Source: a virus. Taken from it: a DNA stretch of 39,904 nt. This document shows positions 3,791 through 38,549 of this stretch, in pieces. Position 1 is the stretch's first letter; each line of letters opens with the position of its first letter. The stretch is taken from IMG/VR virus record IMGVR_UViG_3300022562_000262, positions 1 to 39,904 of that record, one strand, 5' to 3'. The notes under the pieces were generated by a model. That model saw only the letters and a program-made list of their open reading frames with translations. It was not told the DNA's origin and did no database searches. The translations under genes were made by a program, and so were the position numbers.

Positions 3791-4293
3791 GTCGTTGGCC
3801 CCAAATATCCGCCCCTTTCAAACGCCCCTATCGGTCTGGGCTTTGTCTTGCCCTGATCCACTAATTTGAAAAATTCCGTCGAGGTTATCTGCCCCGGCAA
3901 CACTGGCGGCGGCACAAATTCACGCACAACCCGCTTTGGTTCCGAAAGCCGCTGCATTCTGGCGGCGGTTTTCGTGCAAGCCTCGCGGACTTCCGCCACA
4001 TTCGGCAAAAATTTGTTTTCTGAGGCTAAACCCGTTCGTGGATCGGTCACGGATTCGACAACCGCCGCCGGGTATTCGCTTAGGACTGCCGCGACCGCCG
4101 AAACATAGATTTCGGGGTCATGTGCTTCGTCCCTTCGGTAGCAGCTGAACAATGTCCGCGCCAGCCGCAGGCAAGAGGCTTGGTCTAGGCCCCCAGATTT
4201 GCTCGCCCCGTTCGGCCCGTTCCGCGAGGCGATCGGCGGCGCGACTAACTGATTTGCTATCGTCTTGAAGTGTTCTCGGTCCTCCAAATCCAT
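3787..4293 (-). CDS. replication-operon protein, 168 residues, possible helicase-loader-like
   Basis: Start chosen at ATG 4293 because AGGAG stands nine bases upstream; earlier in-frame codons lie deep inside the DUF1376 gene. The middle (CLRLARTLFSCYRRDEAHDP, then YVSAVAAVLSEYP and ASENKFLPNVAEVREAC) has the look of helical proteins found after replisome-organiser genes. Its first 58 codons overlap the end of the DUF1376 gene in another frame, an unusually long overlap. A role in loading replication proteins is inference from position. Confidence 0.65.
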   Translation of the reverse strand: MDLEDREHFKTIANQLVAPPIASRNGPNGASKSGGLDQASCLRLARTLFSCYRRDEAHDPEIYVSAVAAVLSEYPAAVVESVTDPRTGLASENKFLPNVAEVREACTKTAARMQRLSEPKRVVREFVPPPVLPGQITSTEFFKLVDQGKTKPRPIGAFERGGYLGPTT

Positions 4294-4915
4294 TGCGTTT
4301 TCTCCTAGAGTTGCGGCGAAGCCAGTTGCTAAAAACTCTGTCCCAATCCGAACGCCGCTCCCCGTTCCCAAGCGACCAATCCCGCATTTCCCCCGCTGCT
4401 TCCTCCACCTCCTTCATCGAAAGCCCCAACCTTGTCGCTAAGTCGAAGTGGACTTCCGAGGGACGCCAATCGGCGGGGATCAAATGCTTACCCGCCCGCA
4501 AGGGCGGTTCTTCCTTTCTTTCTTTCTTATATAATTGTGATTGTGATTGTGATTGTGATTGTGTATCCAAATGCACGATTTTTGCAGAGCTTTTGCTGTG
4601 CTTTTGCAGGGCTGCCGCCTTGCGTTTATTGGAGATTTCGGAACAACGGTGCAGCTCCGAAACGACTCTTGAGTGTTGCGCCGAAACGTCGTTTACGACG
4701 TCAAAGAATTGCAACACCGTTTCCTTGTACTGGTGCCACAGCCGACTATCGCAACCCGATATTCTGGCTAGTTTTTTGTCGTCTAGGGGGATCAGTCCGT
4801 CATGCTGCCAAGCATGCATTATTAGACTAATGTATATCCCGCGTTCGGTTGCTCCGAGTTCCATCGTGTCGGCAAGGAAATCCCCAATATAGAGGGGCAT
4901 CCAAATGCGGTTCAT
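4118..4915 (-). CDS. DUF1376 replisome-organiser-like protein
   Basis: 265 residues, starting at ATG 4915 with an ATGA overlap on the RusA stop. The N-terminal ~90 residues (MNRIWMPLYIGDFLADTMEL, RGIYISLIMHAWQ, LARISGC) are a DUF1376 winged-helix-like domain found in phage replication initiators. A linker carries five Ser-Gln dipeptides encoded by a hexanucleotide repeat, then a lysine/glutamate stretch. The C-terminal half (ADWRPSEVHFDLATRLGLS, DWDRVFSNWLRRN) is the usual helical tail. It likely binds the origin or recruits helicase together with the DnaA-like protein. Confidence 0.85.
   Translation of the reverse strand: MNRIWMPLYIGDFLADTMELGATERGIYISLIMHAWQHDGLIPLDDKKLARISGCDSRLWHQYKETVLQFFDVVNDVSAQHSRVVSELHRCSEISNKRKAAALQKHSKSSAKIVHLDTQSQSQSQSQLYKKERKEEPPLRAGKHLIPADWRPSEVHFDLATRLGLSMKEVEEAAGEMRDWSLGNGERRSDWDRVFSNWLRRNSRRKRNGFGGPRTLQDDSKSVSRAADRLAERAERGEQIWGPRPSLLPAAGADIVQLLPKGRST
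4534..4563. repeat. five-unit hexanucleotide microsatellite in DUF1376 gene
   Basis: ATTGTG repeated five times in a row; on the coding strand it encodes alternating Gln and Ser. A TTTC-type run lies just beside it at about 4511-4530. Unit length keeps frame, so slippage would only change linker length. Confidence 0.9.
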
Positions 4916-5259
4916 GCGTCCGCTCCCTTGATTTCCAATTCGATCCCGTCGCCCTCGGATTCCGCCCAGCGCGCCGAAACGCTTTGCGCCAAATGGTCGC
5001 CTTCGACTAATCCCGCCCGTTGCGCAAAGTCGGAGACAACCTTGATTAGGTTGTCCACGTCCCTTTTCCGCTTGTCCGGTCTGTATGCCGTGATGTTTAG
5101 GTGGTAAGCGCCAGCCACCGGCTTCGGCTTTTGCGCGATCGCTTCGGCCATCGCCGTTTTCTGCCAAGAGACATATCGCGCAGAGCGATAAACGCGACCG
5201 CCGCCGGATTTCCAAATATGGTTAGCTGTCGGGGGGTAACTCAGTTTCAACTTAATCAT
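4912..5259 (-). CDS. rusA: RusA-type Holliday junction resolvase
   Basis: 115 residues. It fits the RusA family: substrate-binding N-terminus LKLSYPPTANHIW and the acidic catalytic segment RDVDNLIKVVSDF at 66-78 with Asp67, Asp69 and Asn70, followed by GLVEGDHL with Asp88. RusA dimers cut four-way junctions made during recombination or replication. Overlaps both neighbours by ATGA, so it is coupled to the DnaA-like and DUF1376 genes. Length is typical. Confidence 0.9.
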   Translation of the reverse strand: MIKLKLSYPPTANHIWKSGGGRVYRSARYVSWQKTAMAEAIAQKPKPVAGAYHLNITAYRPDKRKRDVDNLIKVVSDFAQRAGLVEGDHLAQSVSARWAESEGDGIELEIKGADA

Positions 5260-10447: not shown

Positions 10448-10785
10448 GCGATTTTCACACCATAACCCTACGTCTAGCCGCTAAGGAATATGGTTTTTCG
10501 TACCATAGGCTAAAGCTGGAATACGATGCTGGGAGGCTAATAGCCTTCCAAATTGGAAATAGGTGGCATACAACGCGGGCAGATATTCGGGATTGGATCG
10601 AAAATTGCCGCGCCAGAGCAAGGGAGCGCGCCTGTGGTATGACCGACGGCGCAATAGCTACGTCATCCGCGACGGAGCGCGTTTCGTCCGCACAGGCAGC
10701 TCTGACCTCGATGCTGCGCAAAAACTCCTGGGAGACTACATCGCGGCGAACTACCGCCCGCGACAATCATCCTGTCCGTCAATAG
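10444..10785 (+). CDS. excisionase-like HTH protein, C-terminus overlapping integrase
   Basis: Starts at ATG 10444 (ATGA overlap). Residues ~5-55 (LAAKEYGFSYHRLKLEYDAG, then IGNRWHTTRADIRDWIEN) are a MerR/excisionase-type winged HTH, expected to direct integrase toward excision. The domain ends near residue 60, but the frame stays open to 10785; the last ~50 residues are read from integrase codons in another frame and look non-native. Either a real extended tail, a lost stop, or a frame error. The HTH identity is firmer than the 3' end. Confidence 0.65.
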   Translation: MSDFHTITLRLAAKEYGFSYHRLKLEYDAGRLIAFQIGNRWHTTRADIRDWIENCRARARERACGMTDGAIATSSATERVSSAQAALTSMLRKNSWETTSRRTTARDNHPVRQ

Positions 10786-11591
10786 CGGAGATTCTTCTAG
10801 CGTATCTCAAAGAGGTAGTTCCGCAGCGCCGCACGGCTCGCAACCTGAGATATAACGTCTCGAATCTGAATAAGTGGTGGGGCGACAAAAGGGTAATGGA
10901 CGTGACCAGCGCGAACTGCCGCGCGTATGCGGAGCCAAGGCAACAGGGCGGGGCGCTGGTTGACCTCAAGATTCTCCAGGCCGCAATCAATCACTGGCAC
11001 AAGGAACACGGCCCGCTGGAGATGGTCCCACGGGTCACGATACCGGCGAACCCACTCCCCAGAACCCGCTGGCTTACCCGGTCGGAAGCCGCCCGACTCC
11101 TGAAAGTGGCCAGAAAAACCCCGTATTTGGCCAGAATGATCCTGCTTTGCCTCTACACGGGTTCCCGAAAGGGCGTGATTCTGGCGCTGAAATGGGACCA
11201 AATAGACCTCAAACGGGCCATTTTGCACAGAAGGCCACAAATGGCCGCTGGTGCGCTGAATAAGCGCGCCCCACCCGTGAGGCTAGGAAGGCGCATTCTA
11301 GCGCACCTACGGCGCTGGGAACGGCTTGACGGCGGTTCCTGTGCCACGGTTTGTCATTACAACGGCCAATCCATTAAACAACCGCATAGGAGCTGGGATC
11401 GGATTTGTAAGTCCGCCGGGTTAAAAGGGGTGACGCCGCACACGCTACGCCACACTAGGGCAACGTGGCTGATGCAGAAGGGCGCCCCGGTCTGGGACGT
11501 GGCGGGGCATCTTGGAATGACTGTCAAGACGTTAGAGCAAACCTATGGGCACCATCACCCGGATTACCAGGGCGGGGTCGCGGACCTCTAA
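10563..11591 (+). CDS. int: tyrosine recombinase, phage integrase
   Basis: Up to 342 residues. Catalytic residues Arg202 (TGSRKG), His293 and Arg296 (HTLRHT), His316 (GHLGM) and Tyr328 (QTYGHHHP) are all visible, so the enzyme should be active. The arm/core-binding part occupies about 65-165. Listed start is GTG 10563; the family-like sequence begins near RLWYDRRRNSYVIRDG (residue 23 on), so TTG 10593 is also possible and would shorten the overlap with the HTH gene. It integrates and excises the phage at an attachment site, probably just downstream (11592-11763). Confidence 0.9.
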   Translation: MAYNAGRYSGLDRKLPRQSKGARLWYDRRRNSYVIRDGARFVRTGSSDLDAAQKLLGDYIAANYRPRQSSCPSIAEILLAYLKEVVPQRRTARNLRYNVSNLNKWWGDKRVMDVTSANCRAYAEPRQQGGALVDLKILQAAINHWHKEHGPLEMVPRVTIPANPLPRTRWLTRSEAARLLKVARKTPYLARMILLCLYTGSRKGVILALKWDQIDLKRAILHRRPQMAAGALNKRAPPVRLGRRILAHLRRWERLDGGSCATVCHYNGQSIKQPHRSWDRICKSAGLKGVTPHTLRHTRATWLMQKGAPVWDVAGHLGMTVKTLEQTYGHHHPDYQGGVADL

Positions 11592-12010: not shown

Positions 12011-12640
12011 CTATGGCTTCTTGCGTTTGTGGGCAGCGATCAAGATGCCGCGCTTGCCGCCCTTGAAGTTAGAATAGATCGTTTGCGGGTGAACCCCGTA
12101 TTTCTTGGCAATTGCCTTGACCGTCCAGCCCTTCATAACCAGCGCCCTGATCTGATCCTTAACCTTTTCCGTTATCTTGCGTTCCCGGCCCACCTGCTCC
12201 CCCCTAGCCTTTAACGCCGCCATGCCTGCCCGAGTGCGCTCAATGGTAAGTTGGCGTTCAAACTCCGCAAAGGCTCCGGCAATGGCTAGATATAGACGGC
12301 CAATGGCGGTATTAAAATCGAAGTTTTCCTGTAGGCTTTTGAATGATGCCTCGGCCTCGAATATCTGATCGAGTCGCAGGTAGAGGTCACGCATTGACCT
12401 AGCCAGCCTGTCAAGCCGCCACACAACCAAGGTATCACCCGGACGCAAATCCTTGATGGCGAGGTCGAGCATTGGGCGGTGCTTTGCTGCCCCGCTCTTT
12501 TTTTCCTCTCGGATGATCGAGCAGCCGGCTTTCCTGAGCGCGTCAGTTTGGAGCGTGAGGCTTTGGTCCTCTGTCGAGACGCGGGCATAGCCGATTAGCT
12601 CCCCTTTGGGTGTTTCGGCGGGTTTCATGGGTTGACGCAT
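12011..12640 (-). CDS. serine recombinase, resolvase/invertase family
   Basis: 209 residues from ATG 12640 (ATG 12628 also possible). GYARVSTEDQ carries the nucleophilic serine (Ser22), and DTLVVWRLDRLARSMRDL the conserved Arg cluster. The E-helix region AIAGAFAEFERQLTIERTRA follows, then a C-terminal HTH (VKAIAKKYGVHPQTIYSNFK). Complete and probably active. Lies beside the tyrosine integrase, which is unusual for one phage. It could invert or resolve DNA, or belong to the accessory cargo segment. Three GTTGAC/GTCAAC hexamers flank its start. Confidence 0.88.
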   Translation of the reverse strand: MRQPMKPAETPKGELIGYARVSTEDQSLTLQTDALRKAGCSIIREEKKSGAAKHRPMLDLAIKDLRPGDTLVVWRLDRLARSMRDLYLRLDQIFEAEASFKSLQENFDFNTAIGRLYLAIAGAFAEFERQLTIERTRAGMAALKARGEQVGRERKITEKVKDQIRALVMKGWTVKAIAKKYGVHPQTIYSNFKGGKRGILIAAHKRKKP

Positions 12641-12685
12641 AACATGCAAAACGATATAAGTCAACAACTAGCGTATAAATAAATG

Positions 12686-12714
12686 TTGACATTTATATTT
12701 TGATGTGCTATGAT
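12686..12714 (+). promoter_or_regulatory. near-consensus sigma70 promoter for cargo genes
   Basis: TTGACA, exact -35 consensus, then 17 bases, then TATGAT. Expected start is near 12721, with ATG 12738 preceded by GGGAGAAGG. Such a strong promoter suggests expression independent of phage induction, as for lysogenic-conversion genes. The -35 overlaps one of the GTTGAC hexamers near the recombinase. Confidence 0.75.
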
Positions 12715-12737: not shown

Positions 12738-13001
12738 ATGGCAAAGAATGCCACGCTACCGAAATCTCTCTCCGATCTGGCGAAGGCTAACCCCGATAAG
12801 GTTCAGTCGCTAGATGTTGAGCGGGATGAATGGGATGGGCCGCGAAGCCCTTGGTCATACTGGATGTGGCTTAATCCAGGGTGGTCACCGGACGGCGAGG
12901 TTCACTGCATCCACGAGCCTACTGTGCGTGAGTTTATGGAAGTGTGGCGGCGGGTTGGGCCATGCGAATGCCAGCAGTGCCGCGAAGCAAAAGCCGCATA
13001 A
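12738..13001 (+). CDS. hypothetical cargo protein, 87 residues
   Basis: First gene after the strong promoter, with ribosome site GGGAGAAGG. Tryptophan-rich (SPWSYWMWLNPGWS), and the C-terminus CECQQCREAK holds three cysteines in a CxCxxC pattern. Possible zinc site with the earlier CIHEP. No family recognised. Confidence 0.65.
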   Translation: MAKNATLPKSLSDLAKANPDKVQSLDVERDEWDGPRSPWSYWMWLNPGWSPDGEVHCIHEPTVREFMEVWRRVGPCECQQCREAKAA

Positions 13002-13014
13002 CGAAAGGGCCGCC

Positions 13015-13380
13015 ATGAAATTCCCCACCTATGCAGTATTAAGCACCTCAACTGGCGTCCTACTTGGCGACATTGGTGGTGTCTATGGCGTCGTTTCCTT
13101 CCTAATTGGCCGCGATGCTTATACGCATGAGCTGGCTATCTATGGCCGCCGCGCAAGCGCCGCGATTAAGGCTGCGCTTCCCGACCTTCCGATTGCCAAG
13201 GATGCCGAGCATGTCAATGGCGGCAACTTCCGCAAGCATCTTGCTAAATGGGAAGATCGATTCGGAGCGGAAATTGAGCTACCGGAAAGCCTGCGGGATT
13301 GCCTTGCCGACGACAAAACCGCACTAGAAACAGCGCAGGAAATCTTTCCCGCCGATAAAATTATAACTATCAACAAATAG
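13015..13380 (+). CDS. hypothetical protein, 121 residues
   Basis: ATG 13015 chosen for AAAGGGC six to twelve bases upstream; the open frame extends further 5' but overlaps the previous gene. Begins MKFPTYAVLSTSTGVLLGDI with GGVYGVVSFLIG, then an alpha/beta body (HVNGGNFRKHLAKWEDRFG). The pattern suggests a soluble globular protein. Function unknown; part of the cargo operon. Confidence 0.6.
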   Translation: MKFPTYAVLSTSTGVLLGDIGGVYGVVSFLIGRDAYTHELAIYGRRASAAIKAALPDLPIAKDAEHVNGGNFRKHLAKWEDRFGAEIELPESLRDCLADDKTALETAQEIFPADKIITINK

Positions 13381-13439
13381 GGCCGCCAGACCCAATTTGG
13401 GCATGTGCGCCTCGGCATTCAGGGGCGGAGAACGAAAAA

Positions 13440-13742
13440 ATGGTAAATCATCCAAATCGCAAAAAGAATGAGCGCGCCGTATTAGTTACGACCGAATATC
13501 GTGGCGTTTTCTTTGGCTACGCTATCAAGACAGACGGAGCAACAATCAAATTGCGCCGCGCACGCAATTGTATCTATTGGCCGATCGCCAATAAGGGATT
13601 TCTCGGTCTTGCGTCGATGGGTCCTGTTGACGGCGCGAAGATTGGACCCGCTGCGGACATTGAATTACGGAATATTACCTGCGTGGCGGAATGTTCTGAG
13701 GACGCCACAAGGGCATGGGAGGCGGCACCATGGAGCCGCTGA
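13440..13742 (+). CDS. DUF6948-like protein
   Basis: 100 residues. VTTEYRGVFFGYAIKTDGAT, RRARNCIYWP, GFLGLASMGP and IGPAADIELRNITCV match, from memory, the DUF6948 family, a small beta-rich protein common in phages and prophages of alphaproteobacteria and often adjacent to a Gly-X repeat protein, as here. Overlaps that gene by 13 bases. Function is not established; co-occurrence suggests the two products work together. Confidence 0.65.
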   Translation: MVNHPNRKKNERAVLVTTEYRGVFFGYAIKTDGATIKLRRARNCIYWPIANKGFLGLASMGPVDGAKIGPAADIELRNITCVAECSEDATRAWEAAPWSR

Positions 13743-14347
13743 TCCTTAATGGCGATCCAGCAAAAGCAGTCGCCATTTTAGGCTCCGGCAACGGCAACGG
13801 CTACGGCTACGGCTACGGCAACGGCAACGGCTACGGCTACGGCTACGGCTCCGGCAACGGCGACGGCTACGGCTACGGCTCCGGCAACGGCTACGGCTAC
13901 GGCTCCGGCAACGGCGACGGCTACGGCTACGGCGACGGCTACGGCTACGGCTACGGCTACGGCTCCGGCTACGGCTCCGGCTACGGCTACGGCGACGGCT
14001 CCTATTGGCTATCTTGCATAGCCTACTTTGCCGAAAGGTGGAATGATGCCGAGCGGGCGCGACTTGCTGCCGCCAAAAAACTGAAAGCTAAGATTGCTTA
14101 CTGGCGATCCGATAAGAACGGGCAACCATCAAATAGTGGCGGCAAGATTGAAGCCGCCGGCCCCGGCGTTATTCACACAACGAATGGGCCACTCCGTCTA
14201 TGCAATGCGGGAACATTACACGCTACCTTGCTGCCTACGAAATGGAAAGGTGAGAGATGGTGGATTGTTGCGCTTCATGGCGAAGTGGTGGGCGACGAAG
14301 AGAAATTTGGCTGCCTAAAGCGCGAGATTATTGGTGAATGCCTTTGA
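13730..14347 (+). CDS. Gly-X dipeptide repeat protein
   Basis: 205 residues from ATG 13730, chosen because GGGAGG is 7-12 bases upstream. Residues 18-91 are 37 uninterrupted Gly-X dipeptides, X being Tyr, Asn, Asp or Ser; every Gly uses GGC. The rest is an ordinary domain beginning YWLSCIAYFAERWNDAERAR and ending with GPLRLCNAGTLHAT and KWKGERWWIVALHGEVVGDE, a beta-rich part that could bind ligand or host partner. The repeat would be flexible or fibrous. No secretion signal is visible. Similar repeat proteins exist in bacteria and phages; function unknown. Confidence 0.7.
   Translation: MEPLILNGDPAKAVAILGSGNGNGYGYGYGNGNGYGYGYGSGNGDGYGYGSGNGYGYGSGNGDGYGYGDGYGYGYGYGSGYGSGYGYGDGSYWLSCIAYFAERWNDAERARLAAAKKLKAKIAYWRSDKNGQPSNSGGKIEAAGPGVIHTTNGPLRLCNAGTLHATLLPTKWKGERWWIVALHGEVVGDEEKFGCLKREIIGECL
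13781..14002 (+). repeat. 37-unit hexanucleotide array GGC-NNC
   Basis: 222 bases of six-base units GGCTAC, GGCAAC, GGCGAC or GGCTCC. Variation is confined to bases four and five of the unit. Higher-order blocks are visible, such as GGCTCCGGCAACGGCGACGG occurring twice. Frame is kept by any unit gain or loss. Confidence 0.95.
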
Positions 14348-14580: not shown

Positions 14581-14589
14581 AAAGGGCCG

Positions 14590-14775
14590 CTATTTATTTT
14601 CGTCTGCCGGTTCCCAGGAATGAAGAACCTTCGCACTTAGATAATTCAATAGCGCCCATTGTTTCTTGCTGAGATTGTGGCACAGCGTTTGACCCGCCAT
14701 ATCGGTAAGGGACAGATATGCCTTATCGGACGCGGGTTGACCCGCCGTTAAGCATTTCACATTCTTATGTTGCAT
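14590..14775 (-). CDS. hypothetical protein, 61 residues, last of the late operon
   Basis: Start at ATG 14775 is favoured because the frame upstream is inside the preceding gene and GAGCGAGAAG precedes it. Product MQHKNVKCLTAGQPASDKAY onward is soluble with no domain recognised. Overlaps the upstream gene by 11 bases. Confidence 0.45.
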   Translation of the reverse strand: MQHKNVKCLTAGQPASDKAYLSLTDMAGQTLCHNLSKKQWALLNYLSAKVLHSWEPADENK

Positions 14776-14938
14776 TCTTCTCGCTCTCCGGTAGCGGGGG
14801 CTTTCCCTCTCCCTTCCAGACTCCGATATATGACCATTCCCCATGCGGGGTTCCTTTAAGGCTGTCGCTCACGGTCCAGCCCATGCGTTCGTATTCCTCT
14901 TTCAAATGCTTGCCGATAAATTTGGTCCAGCTAATCAT
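14765..14938 (-). CDS. hypothetical protein, 57 residues
   Basis: Start chosen at ATG 14938 for its ATGA overlap with the zincin-like gene. Sequence MISWTKFIGKHLKEEYERMG then EWSYIGVWKGEGKPPLP. Alpha followed by beta, soluble. No family. Confidence 0.55.
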   Translation of the reverse strand: MISWTKFIGKHLKEEYERMGWTVSDSLKGTPHGEWSYIGVWKGEGKPPLPESEKNAT

Positions 14939-15249
14939 TGCAGGGATTCCATAAGCCATTTCATAAAATCCGGGTTGTCACGGATCATCATGGCCATGCC
15001 TATCGACATAAGGCTGACAAGTCTTTCTTCCGTATCCTTCCCCCTGAGATTCATCACTTTGAATATGGCATGGAATATTTCATGCAATAGGGTTTCCGCC
15101 TCCTGTTGCTGGCTGGCATATTTTTCCCGCAGGGAAATAGCCATAGCGGTTTCGGAGAATGTCCCGAGATTATTGTCTCGGTCCTCACCTAATAATTTTA
15201 TGATGGAAATATCGAAGGGACCGACGCGGACGGAATCAAATGGAACCAT
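14935..15249 (-). CDS. minimal zincin-like phage protein (HExxH)
   Basis: 104 residues. LLHEIFHAIFKVMN (54-67) is an HExxH helix with hydrophobic surroundings, as in zinc-dependent peptidases. A downstream Glu in KDTEERLVSLMS could be the third ligand. The layout resembles short phage proteins with an ImmA/IrrE-style catalytic helix. Cytoplasmic, no signal. A partner or substrate is not visible; it may also be a structural remnant of the fold. Confidence 0.65.
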   Translation of the reverse strand: MVPFDSVRVGPFDISIIKLLGEDRDNNLGTFSETAMAISLREKYASQQQEAETLLHEIFHAIFKVMNLRGKDTEERLVSLMSIGMAMMIRDNPDFMKWLMESLQ

Positions 15250-37319: not shown

Positions 37320-38549
37320 CTACTGCGAAAGAATTGGAGCTTGTTGACGCGGCGGCGCTAGTGCGCCGGCTGCTGGGAATAATCCAGCAAGTCCGTATTT
37401 TCGGATAATGTCTATAATATCGGGATTGAAAACGACGTAGTTTCTAGTTCCAGTAGCGGAACCGCGCGAACCTTGGTCTAGGTATTTAATGCCGGGGATG
37501 CCGGCGTCGGAAAGAGCCTTAGACGCGAATGGGTCGATAATGTCGCCAACGGAAACCGGGTTCGCTATTTCTGGTGTCCGGGTTTTATCGGCAATTATTT
37601 TGGCTCCCAGGCGCCTATAAAAATCACTCCCATAATTTTCTTTTGTGGCCGGTAATGGCGGTTCCCCAATTCTATTACTGAGTTTCGGAAAACTGTATTC
37701 GGCGGGTAAACCAATTTGTTGCGCTATATCTTTTACGGCTTGCGGCTGCTCACCAATAGGCTTCTCCCAATCCAAGAACTGTTGCGGTTCGGCGTTTATG
37801 TTGACTTCGTACATGCGGCCCGGAGCTATGCTCGAAACTTGTTCCGGCGTGGCGTTCTTAACGTGTTTGTTGTAATAATCGGCCATCGCCCGCATATCCT
37901 CGCCAGCGGAGCCTCCGCTTGTCATCGAATAATGGTTTGCAATCCTGTTTTCGATTTGCTGCCGAAGAAACGGTATCATCGTGCTATCTGGATTGTGCTT
38001 CATTGTTGACAGAAGCAAATCCATTTGCTGCCCGGTATCCAGAGCCGCATGACCAGAAATACCGGACGGCATTGGTACGCCATTAACCCCGAATTGCGCC
38101 TTACCGCTTCCTAGCGAGTTTGGGTTTAATCCGGTCAAGGCCCTTTTATATTGTTCCGCAACCGCTGGATTCTCGGCAAAATACAGTCCATGCCCGTAAG
38201 CCTGGGCGCCCTCGCCCATGCCGATCTTGCTCAAATCAAACTTATTAAAATCGTAGGGACTGCCGTGGTAGGCCCTGATCCCCATTCTAAGAGCGTCCGC
38301 TTCCGCTGGCATGGCCCCGGCCCCTAGCGTCGTCATCATCGCTAGGTCAGCCGCAGGCTTAATCATCTCATCAACCGTGCCGCCATACTTATAGGCGTTG
38401 CCAGGAGCCATCGCGGCATTAGCCGCAGTCTTACCCAATCCAGCAATAATGCTGTCGAGTATCGTGGGCGGATTCGCTGGTAATTCTTGTGGCGACAAGG
38501 TGCCGTAATTGGCCCCCGGAGCCGATAGCAAATCCCATAATGAGGTCAT
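37320..38549 (-). CDS. ADP-ribosyltransferase-like protein in packaging module
   Basis: 409 residues. An N-terminal helical ~90 residues precede AYHGSPYDFNKFDLSKIG (His at 95), GAQAYGHGLYFAENPAVAEQY (YGHGLYFAE at 118-126) and, near the end, DAGIPGIKYLDQ and TRNYVVFNPDII. This is the strand order of PARP/diphtheria-type ART domains: H in strand 1, Y in G-x-YF, then a final NYVVF strand. Such domains occur in large polyvalent and MuF-associated phage proteins. It would modify a host target by transferring ADP-ribose from NAD. A glutamate in the last motif is not evident, so activity is uncertain. It lies four bases upstream of the portal. Confidence 0.72.
   Translation of the reverse strand: MTSLWDLLSAPGANYGTLSPQELPANPPTILDSIIAGLGKTAANAAMAPGNAYKYGGTVDEMIKPAADLAMMTTLGAGAMPAEADALRMGIRAYHGSPYDFNKFDLSKIGMGEGAQAYGHGLYFAENPAVAEQYKRALTGLNPNSLGSGKAQFGVNGVPMPSGISGHAALDTGQQMDLLLSTMKHNPDSTMIPFLRQQIENRIANHYSMTSGGSAGEDMRAMADYYNKHVKNATPEQVSSIAPGRMYEVNINAEPQQFLDWEKPIGEQPQAVKDIAQQIGLPAEYSFPKLSNRIGEPPLPATKENYGSDFYRRLGAKIIADKTRTPEIANPVSVGDIIDPFASKALSDAGIPGIKYLDQGSRGSATGTRNYVVFNPDIIDIIRKYGLAGLFPAAGALAPPRQQAPILSQ

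Follow-up and report, generated by a model that had tools for sequence, protein, structure and literature searches.

The window analysed here, i.e. the whole 39,904-base stretch of DNA that makes up one IMG/VR virus record, carries a pair of overlapping plus-strand genes some distance after an integrase and a resolvase gene (Table 1). The first of the two encodes a DUF6948 protein (E=1.6e-20, 73.4 bits against a gathering cut-off of 27), and the second encodes a protein built around a strictly periodic glycine repeat.

Table 1. Coordinates of the DUF6948 gene, the array gene and the features preceding them in the window
Feature	Position	Strand	Basis
Integrase gene	10563-11591		
Resolvase gene	12011-12667		
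Promoter-like site, TTGACA-17-TATGAT with TG before the -10	12686-12714	+	11/12 match to sigma-70-like consensus only
DUF7736 gene, upstream of the DUF6948 gene	13015-13380	+	
DUF6948 gene, 100 aa, predicted Sm/LSm-like small beta-barrel	13440-13742	+	Pfam PF22253; AlphaFold2; Foldseek; VIA-align
Plausible ribosome-binding site of the array gene, GGGAGG	13717-13722	+	Sequence match
Gly-X array gene, 205 aa, 13-nt overlap with the DUF6948 gene	13730-14347	+	Start conserved in relatives
(GGC NNC) x37, coding (Gly-X)37	13781-14002	+	Tandem Repeats Finder; unit count
C-terminal globular domain, predicted DUF7666/rIIB-like, ADP-ribosyltransferase-like fold	14003-14344	+	AlphaFold2 (pLDDT 93.8); BFVD; VIA-align

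The array gene (ATG at 13730, stop codon at 14345-14347) specifies a 17-residue leader, MEPLILNGDPAKAVAIL, followed by 37 Gly-X pairs and a domain of 114 residues; a second in-frame ATG lies at 13715, and relatives keep 'MEPLIL..' from 13730 as their start. The first-pass annotation of this DNA had described the repeat as a hexamer array in a gene overlapping that of DUF6948, and the count bears this out, as its 222 nt are exactly 37 GGC-NNC units, namely 19 GGCTAC, seven GGCTCC, seven GGCAAC and four GGCGAC (X = Y19 S7 N7 D4), with variation confined to bases 4 and 5 of the unit. Tandem Repeats Finder scored the array at 321, and the two other arrays in the window at 60 and 54. Elsewhere in the window a short hexamer repeat (ATTGTG x5, 4534-4563) gives Ser-Gln repeats in a minus-strand ORF (4118-5215). 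All 37 array glycines are encoded by GGC, whereas the C-terminal domain of the same gene mixes its glycine codons (GGC 7, GGG 2, GGT 2, GGA 1), so the uniformity of the array is not simply codon bias; that explanation was discarded for the arrays at large as well, since glycine codons are mixed in the C-terminal domains of array ORFs, and there are arrays with GGG or GGT throughout. Chance or artefact was rejected because arrays recur with conserved in-frame flanks, and because Barbavirus genomes, with a coverage of 193-4,789x (PMC6715854), share array alleles. Two Pfam near-misses for the window's array protein, TrAA12 and Rrp40_N, lay below cut-off and were not accepted.

AlphaFold2 models, all of single chains, were used to place the two proteins among known folds. 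The DUF6948 model (pLDDT 92.4) has five strands, with one helix inserted between the third and fourth of them and another at the C-terminus, and almost all of its top 50 Foldseek matches in the PDB were Sm/LSm proteins (probability 0.97-1.00, best E 2.9e-3). VIA-align superposed it on 3by7 and on Lsm1-7 over 72 residues (rmsd 3.1) with a Z of 6.8, a value below 8 and thus in the range where the tool warns of a merely common arrangement, so that the Sm assignment is provisional and holds at the level of the fold. At the level of sequence, a PDB profile search returned nothing relevant to an Sm link, hhalign of DUF6948 against archaeal LSm proteins (in an alignment that included some extra ORFs) gave a probability below 1%, and individual members produced weak Pfam matches to SM-ATX (E=0.006), Hfq (0.019) and LSM (0.13). 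The near-invariant residues of DUF6948 are G22, V23, G26, R42, W47, G61 and A89, and the RG contained in the classic Sm2 motif is absent among them. As no sequence homology to Sm proteins was found, we do not file DUF6948 as a member of the Sm family, and describe the protein as Sm-like in its predicted fold only. All 72 members of our DUF6948 alignment A2 match Pfam DUF6948.

The modelled C-terminal domain of the array protein resembles the DUF7666/rIIB fold, and may resemble that of ADP-ribosyltransferases. In BFVD, a comparison with predicted models on both sides, it matched DUF7666 proteins (E 8.5e-4 and 9.6e-4) and rIIB (5.1e-4 to 3.8e-3) with probability 1.0, and VIA-align gave a Z of 6.4 against the ADP-ribosyltransferase Arr; Foldseek found no significant match to this model in the PDB, and the DUF7666 profile matched four of 43 members of the C-domain family, with a best E of 0.0084 and none above the Pfam cut-off. 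BFVD also contains this fold on proteins with ankyrin or pentapeptide repeats, and a repeat thus seems to be a frequent companion of the domain. Relatives of the C-domain were found at 47 IMG/VR loci, and almost all of those reaching far enough upstream carry (Gly-X)n, of about 7 to 67 units, most of them with DUF6948 upstream; one relative (L024) is without a Gly-X array in its frame. At L045 (2854-2960) an upstream continuation of the array is read in another frame (LWLWLW...), and represents a frameshifted array segment. A tblastn search of INPHARED with the window's C-domain and the window's DUF6948 as queries gave no match, and other DUF6948 subfamilies did match. Two further genes on the minus strand of the window are worth recording, namely one for a small HExxH-like protein (14935-15249, LLHEIFHAIF), a similar gene being found near a few loci of the C-domain family, and a possible ADP-ribosyltransferase gene between portal and terminase (37320-38549), with an ART-PolyVal match just under the cut-off (E=8.4e-6).

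Scanning with only the hexamer pattern gave at least 120 loci, and when the ORFs around arrays were clustered, one family, DUF6948, was present at 111 of the 136 loci listed, on the same strand and at a median gap of 29 nt. We counted as testable those arrays that had been found by the DNA pattern or by the window's C-domain and that had at least 450 nt of sequence upstream. Among the 129 such arrays in the matches listed, a profile search placed a same-strand DUF6948-like gene just upstream in 115 and never on the opposite strand, and most of the 14 arrays that lack it there are later copies in tandem sets. Over 350 array loci listed, DUF6948 is a neighbour at 319 and any other family at no more than 25 (the next real families, judged by eye, being YqaJ exonuclease with 24, ERF with 22, SSB with 10 and RecT with seven), and it is the only near-universal neighbour of the arrays.

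The converse was examined with three DUF6948 subfamily alignments, which gave 240 loci from DUF6948 alone, 231 of them with enough sequence downstream. A fixed rule called an array at 225 of the 231, and after the six failures had been viewed by eye the count stood at 230 of 231 viral loci: two were ordinary arrays misread by the rule (L286, L307), three were arrays with unusual residues (L241, L331, L335), and the sole array-less locus (L274) has an HNH-type ORF next, after which the contig ends. Because these alignments had been started from array-linked DUF6948 genes, Pfam's own PF22253 model was also run on whole genomes, where it matched in about 1% of those sampled (2/295, 3/385, 2/395 and 5/396). 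Gly-X arrays were found at all 12 distinct loci above its cut-off in bacterial and archaeal genomes, of which four came from direct look-up, five lie in genomes that were also in a scan of genome contigs, and two (L482, L483) have a looser array alphabet; the single match below cut-off (L484) has no Gly-X array. In the genome-contig scan itself, an array accompanied DUF6948 at nine of nine loci. The proposal that the two genes form a conserved system thus held in both directions, and we are practically certain that a conserved DUF6948 + (Gly-X)n module exists.

The module is widespread, occurring in many unrelated bacterial viruses and some archaeal ones, in which its two parts are tightly linked and sometimes fused. 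Named phages with the pair include Rheinheimera Barbavirus (115 records), Pectobacterium and Dickeya phages, Iodobacter phiPLPE and Chlorobiaceae phage CV-1-33, and genome-contig records with the pair come from Rhodopseudomonas, Xanthobacter, Aurantimicrobium, Daviesbacteria, Acidobacteria, Methanoperedens, Aequorivita, Myxococcales and Ahrensia. In phiPLPE a 35-unit Gly-X array (L412, 1200-1409) occupies an unannotated gap between phiPLPE_84 and phiPLPE_83, the array gene having been missed in the deposited annotation. Contigs often begin or end within an array (L424, L425, L477 and many from IMG/VR, e.g. L007, L010, L015, L016, L017 and L025); as short-read assemblies break at the array, the module is probably under-counted. 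Some arrays have only 5-10 units, and such short calls can also be contig ends.

The occurrence of the pair in phage isolates (Rheinheimera Barbavirus, Pectobacterium, Iodobacter phiPLPE and the Chlorobiaceae phage), and the nature of the other recurring neighbours, which are recombination and single-strand genes (YqaJ, ERF, SSB, RecT), do not support the earlier suggestion that it is carried as lysogeny cargo. Neither 'integrase' nor 'lysogen' appears in the text of the paper that describes the Barbavirus isolates (PMC6715854). The promoter-like site of the window, a candidate for the strong promoter suggested in the first-pass annotation, could serve the plus-strand genes from 12738 to 14347, and the number of sigma-70-like sites in the window is not above that in shuffles. 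A AGGGCCGCC-like motif occurs just upstream of or between plus-strand genes (13006-13014, 13379-13387 and 14583-14591), with no significant enrichment over the whole window.

Array proteins recovered by the pattern scan have unrelated leaders and ends, many being a short leader plus the array only, and the array is therefore not tied to the C-domain seen in the window. Five of them (L067, L073, L118, L120 and L153) share a second, unrelated C-terminal domain, which ends 'DEFIxLTKNxYGG', and each has DUF6948 upstream. Tandem paralogous array genes were found in L111 (five copies), L053, L058, L095, L126 and L142; in L111 (1720-2929), L058, L095 and L142 the copies share leaders (and in L111 also ends) and have differing arrays, a layout like that of a precursor-peptide family. 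In three loci (L300, L304 and L306) the array and then DUF6948 are fused in one ORF, and in L084 DUF6948 comes first. These are two independent fusions in opposite orders, which argues that array and DUF6948 act together. The two are also joined in the PHROG family phrog_18306, whose profile matches the window's array at positions 52-134 and DUF6948 subfamily B at 146-231.

The residue alternating with glycine is Y, S or D in most arrays, and a Y/N/D class is nearly confined to arrays that accompany DUF6948 of subfamily A3 (33 N : 36 S; in A4 and A5 together, 5 N : 172 S; Fisher p 1e-16, with kinship ignored), the array of the window being mixed, with both S and N. Arrays found through DUF6948 have an X composition of 36% Tyr, 29% Ser, 23% Asp and 4% Asn. 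An ATG within 40 codons gives an open Gly-X frame in 267 of 315 arrays, compared with 64 and 15 for the other frames.

In 333 distinct arrays (9,682 units), mean within-array heterozygosity is 0.42 and 0.37 at unit bases 4 and 5, and 0.045 and 0.050 at bases 3 and 6, both of which are open to synonymous change; in 101 ORFs with a globular C-part, heterozygosity at the third base of glycine codons is 0.052 in the array versus 0.474 outside it. Between arrays the third-base types vary (CC 203, CT 64, GC 34, TC 22, TT 6, AT 3, AC 1), and the type follows genome G+C. The Pectobacterium phages Abuela and Amona have no differences in 994 flanking bases, but their arrays number 30 and 27 units, in orders that agree hardly more than by chance (p 0.06). 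Rheinheimera isolates with identical 1,500-base flanks (Barba1A, 12A, 15S and 10-8A; Barba3A and 10-9I) differ in their arrays by duplications of a single Y or N unit, plus one local swap, and among the arrays listed for 115 Barbavirus genomes there are four length alleles, the two commonest being common to dozens of isolates. In 20 of 23 pairs of near-identical phages the arrays differ in length by a multiple of 6, and the three exceptions pair L301 with the fused or truncated arrays of L300, L304 and L306; a phase-variable frameshift switch was rejected on this count. Internal block repeats exceed permuted order in 26% of arrays, versus 5% expected. Length differences seen in metagenomes only (e.g. 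12 and 30 units in L347 and L348) may be assembly effects and were not relied on. Array units thus turn over far faster than point mutation, though not every generation, by slippage and probably by conversion between units, and since nearly every array still has the Y/S/D mixture, that mixture must be maintained by selection on composition. Ongoing change in whole units that preserves the frame had been predicted from the window, and both parts of that prediction agree with these comparisons; an invariant repeat number without conserved adjacency, the outcome named beforehand as counting against it, was contradicted by variable arrays and by the adjacency described above.

The reading that we prefer, while judging it slightly short of an even chance, is that DUF6948 is an Sm-like, nucleic-acid-binding protein, and that the Tyr-rich (Gly-X)n chain is its multivalent partner, in which the order of units is free. 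The DUF6948 protein, a small beta-barrel in its model, would oligomerise and bind RNA or single-stranded DNA, and the array would be its disordered partner, with tyrosines as 'stickers' and Gly, Ser and Asp as spacers. Such a chain might hold many DUF6948 units, and so gather the bound nucleic acid into one body in the infected cell, to which, in the window's family, the attached DUF7666/rIIB-like domain would also be drawn. Selection would then act only on array composition and on a range of lengths, leaving slippage and hexamer conversion free to reshuffle the order, and this would account for hypervariable order together with near-uniform synonymous bases. Constraint at the protein level is supported by the retained X composition and by the open Gly-X frame with its start codon; arrays of 5-10 units would make weak scaffolds, and count against the mechanism. 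More tentatively, and with a good deal of doubt, we suggest that a protein of predicted Sm fold and a hypervariable Gly-Tyr/Ser/Asp repeat protein build a nucleoprotein condensate during infection, which would be a viral counterpart of granules formed by LSm and low-complexity RNP proteins.

The changing order might instead be the function itself, the array diversifying as a surface for recognition or as a decoy in an arms race, e.g. by binding or evading some host factor or a defence protein, while DUF6948 served as its carrier or chaperone. This would fit the change of order and length within identical flanking DNA, and the occurrence of the C-domain fold on ankyrin and pentapeptide proteins, which would suit a repeat that is an interchangeable module for binding. 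We nevertheless think it unlikely, as an alphabet of almost only Y, S, D and N, with no further classes of charge or size, is poor for specific recognition, and as arrays are stable within lineages, the two commonest Barbavirus alleles being shared by dozens of isolates. Less likely again is a repeat that acts as DNA or RNA, i.e. a six-base-periodic element bound by DUF6948 or used in recombination, of which the Gly-X protein is a by-product. The strict period, the near-uniform third bases within an array, the adjoining predicted nucleic-acid-type fold and the rank of recombination genes as next commonest neighbours all agree with such an element, but third bases differ between arrays (CC, CT, GC, TC, TT, AT) in step with genome G+C, the open frame with a start codon is the Gly-X one, in-frame fusions join arrays to globular domains and to DUF6948, and most other NNC codons are excluded from the alphabet.

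A silk-like or amyloid-like solid, made up of beta-sheet fibres or gels of Gly-X chains, whether intracellular or part of the virion, seems slightly more improbable still: strict alternation of glycine with Ser and Tyr recalls the Gly-X blocks of silkworm fibroin, but about a quarter of X residues are Asp, which should oppose stacking, and the array genes lie among early recombination and replication genes, not structural ones. A selfish or neutral microsatellite that sits in frame beside DUF6948 by chance would, like any slippage-prone repeat, show the single-unit duplications seen between near-identical isolates and the excess of block repeats (26% against 5%), and is already disfavoured to the point of being very improbable by a near-absolute association with one gene family across phyla, by fusions in both orders, and by a Y/S/D mixture that is kept despite fast turnover and an alphabet tied to DUF6948 subfamily.

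A gene pair so tightly linked, which is found in phages of soil, gut and sea as well as in the genomes of bacteria and archaea, probably has an important role. With this module, the pairing of an Sm-like protein with a low-complexity partner that is separate from it can be put to the test outside eukaryotes, and hundreds of natural low-complexity chains with the same alphabet in different orders are useful for asking whether composition or order matters. The array locus is also a very fast-evolving one, which breaks short-read assemblies and goes unannotated. Aromatic residues were heavily under-represented in a survey of prokaryotic and phage low-complexity regions (PMC6821194), so the Tyr-rich class of arrays is unusual.

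No mention of DUF6948, DUF7666, the repeat or the module was found in the open-access papers searched, and those on Sm-like phage proteins and phage condensates had nothing on the module. The window's gene and array match DUF6948 (PF22253) and phrog_18306, both catalogued as of unknown function; the obligate link to (Gly-X)n, the Sm-like predicted fold and the hypervariability were found described nowhere in that literature, and we regard the module as undescribed there. DUF6948 is like Sm, LSm and Hfq proteins in predicted fold, with no detectable sequence homology; it differs from them in having a helix between its third and fourth strands, and in that its terminal helix is at the C-terminus where theirs is usually at the N-terminus. 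The proteins that it resembles in fold include 3by7, an Sm-like protein from an uncultured marine source, for which a phage origin has been suggested in the literature. The C-domain is similarly alike in predicted fold to DUF7666 and T4-type rIIB while scoring below the Pfam cut-off, and is carried only by the window's array family; its possible likeness to the ADP-ribosyltransferase fold (Arr, PARP; Z 6.4 for Arr) implies no enzyme activity. Phase-variable contingency loci share with the array the slippage-driven length change of a short-unit repeat, but the array changes the length and order of a protein and not an on/off state, as a unit of 6 nt keeps the frame and the gene is never switched off. 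No reverse-transcriptase gene was noticed around the array, and arrays, unlike the targets of diversity-generating retroelements, also change by gaining whole units. In its working, and not by homology, the pair would be analogous to the RNP granules of eukaryotes, in which LSm proteins and Tyr/Gly-rich low-complexity domains (FUS-like) are found, each system pairing an Sm-type module with a Tyr/Gly-rich chain.
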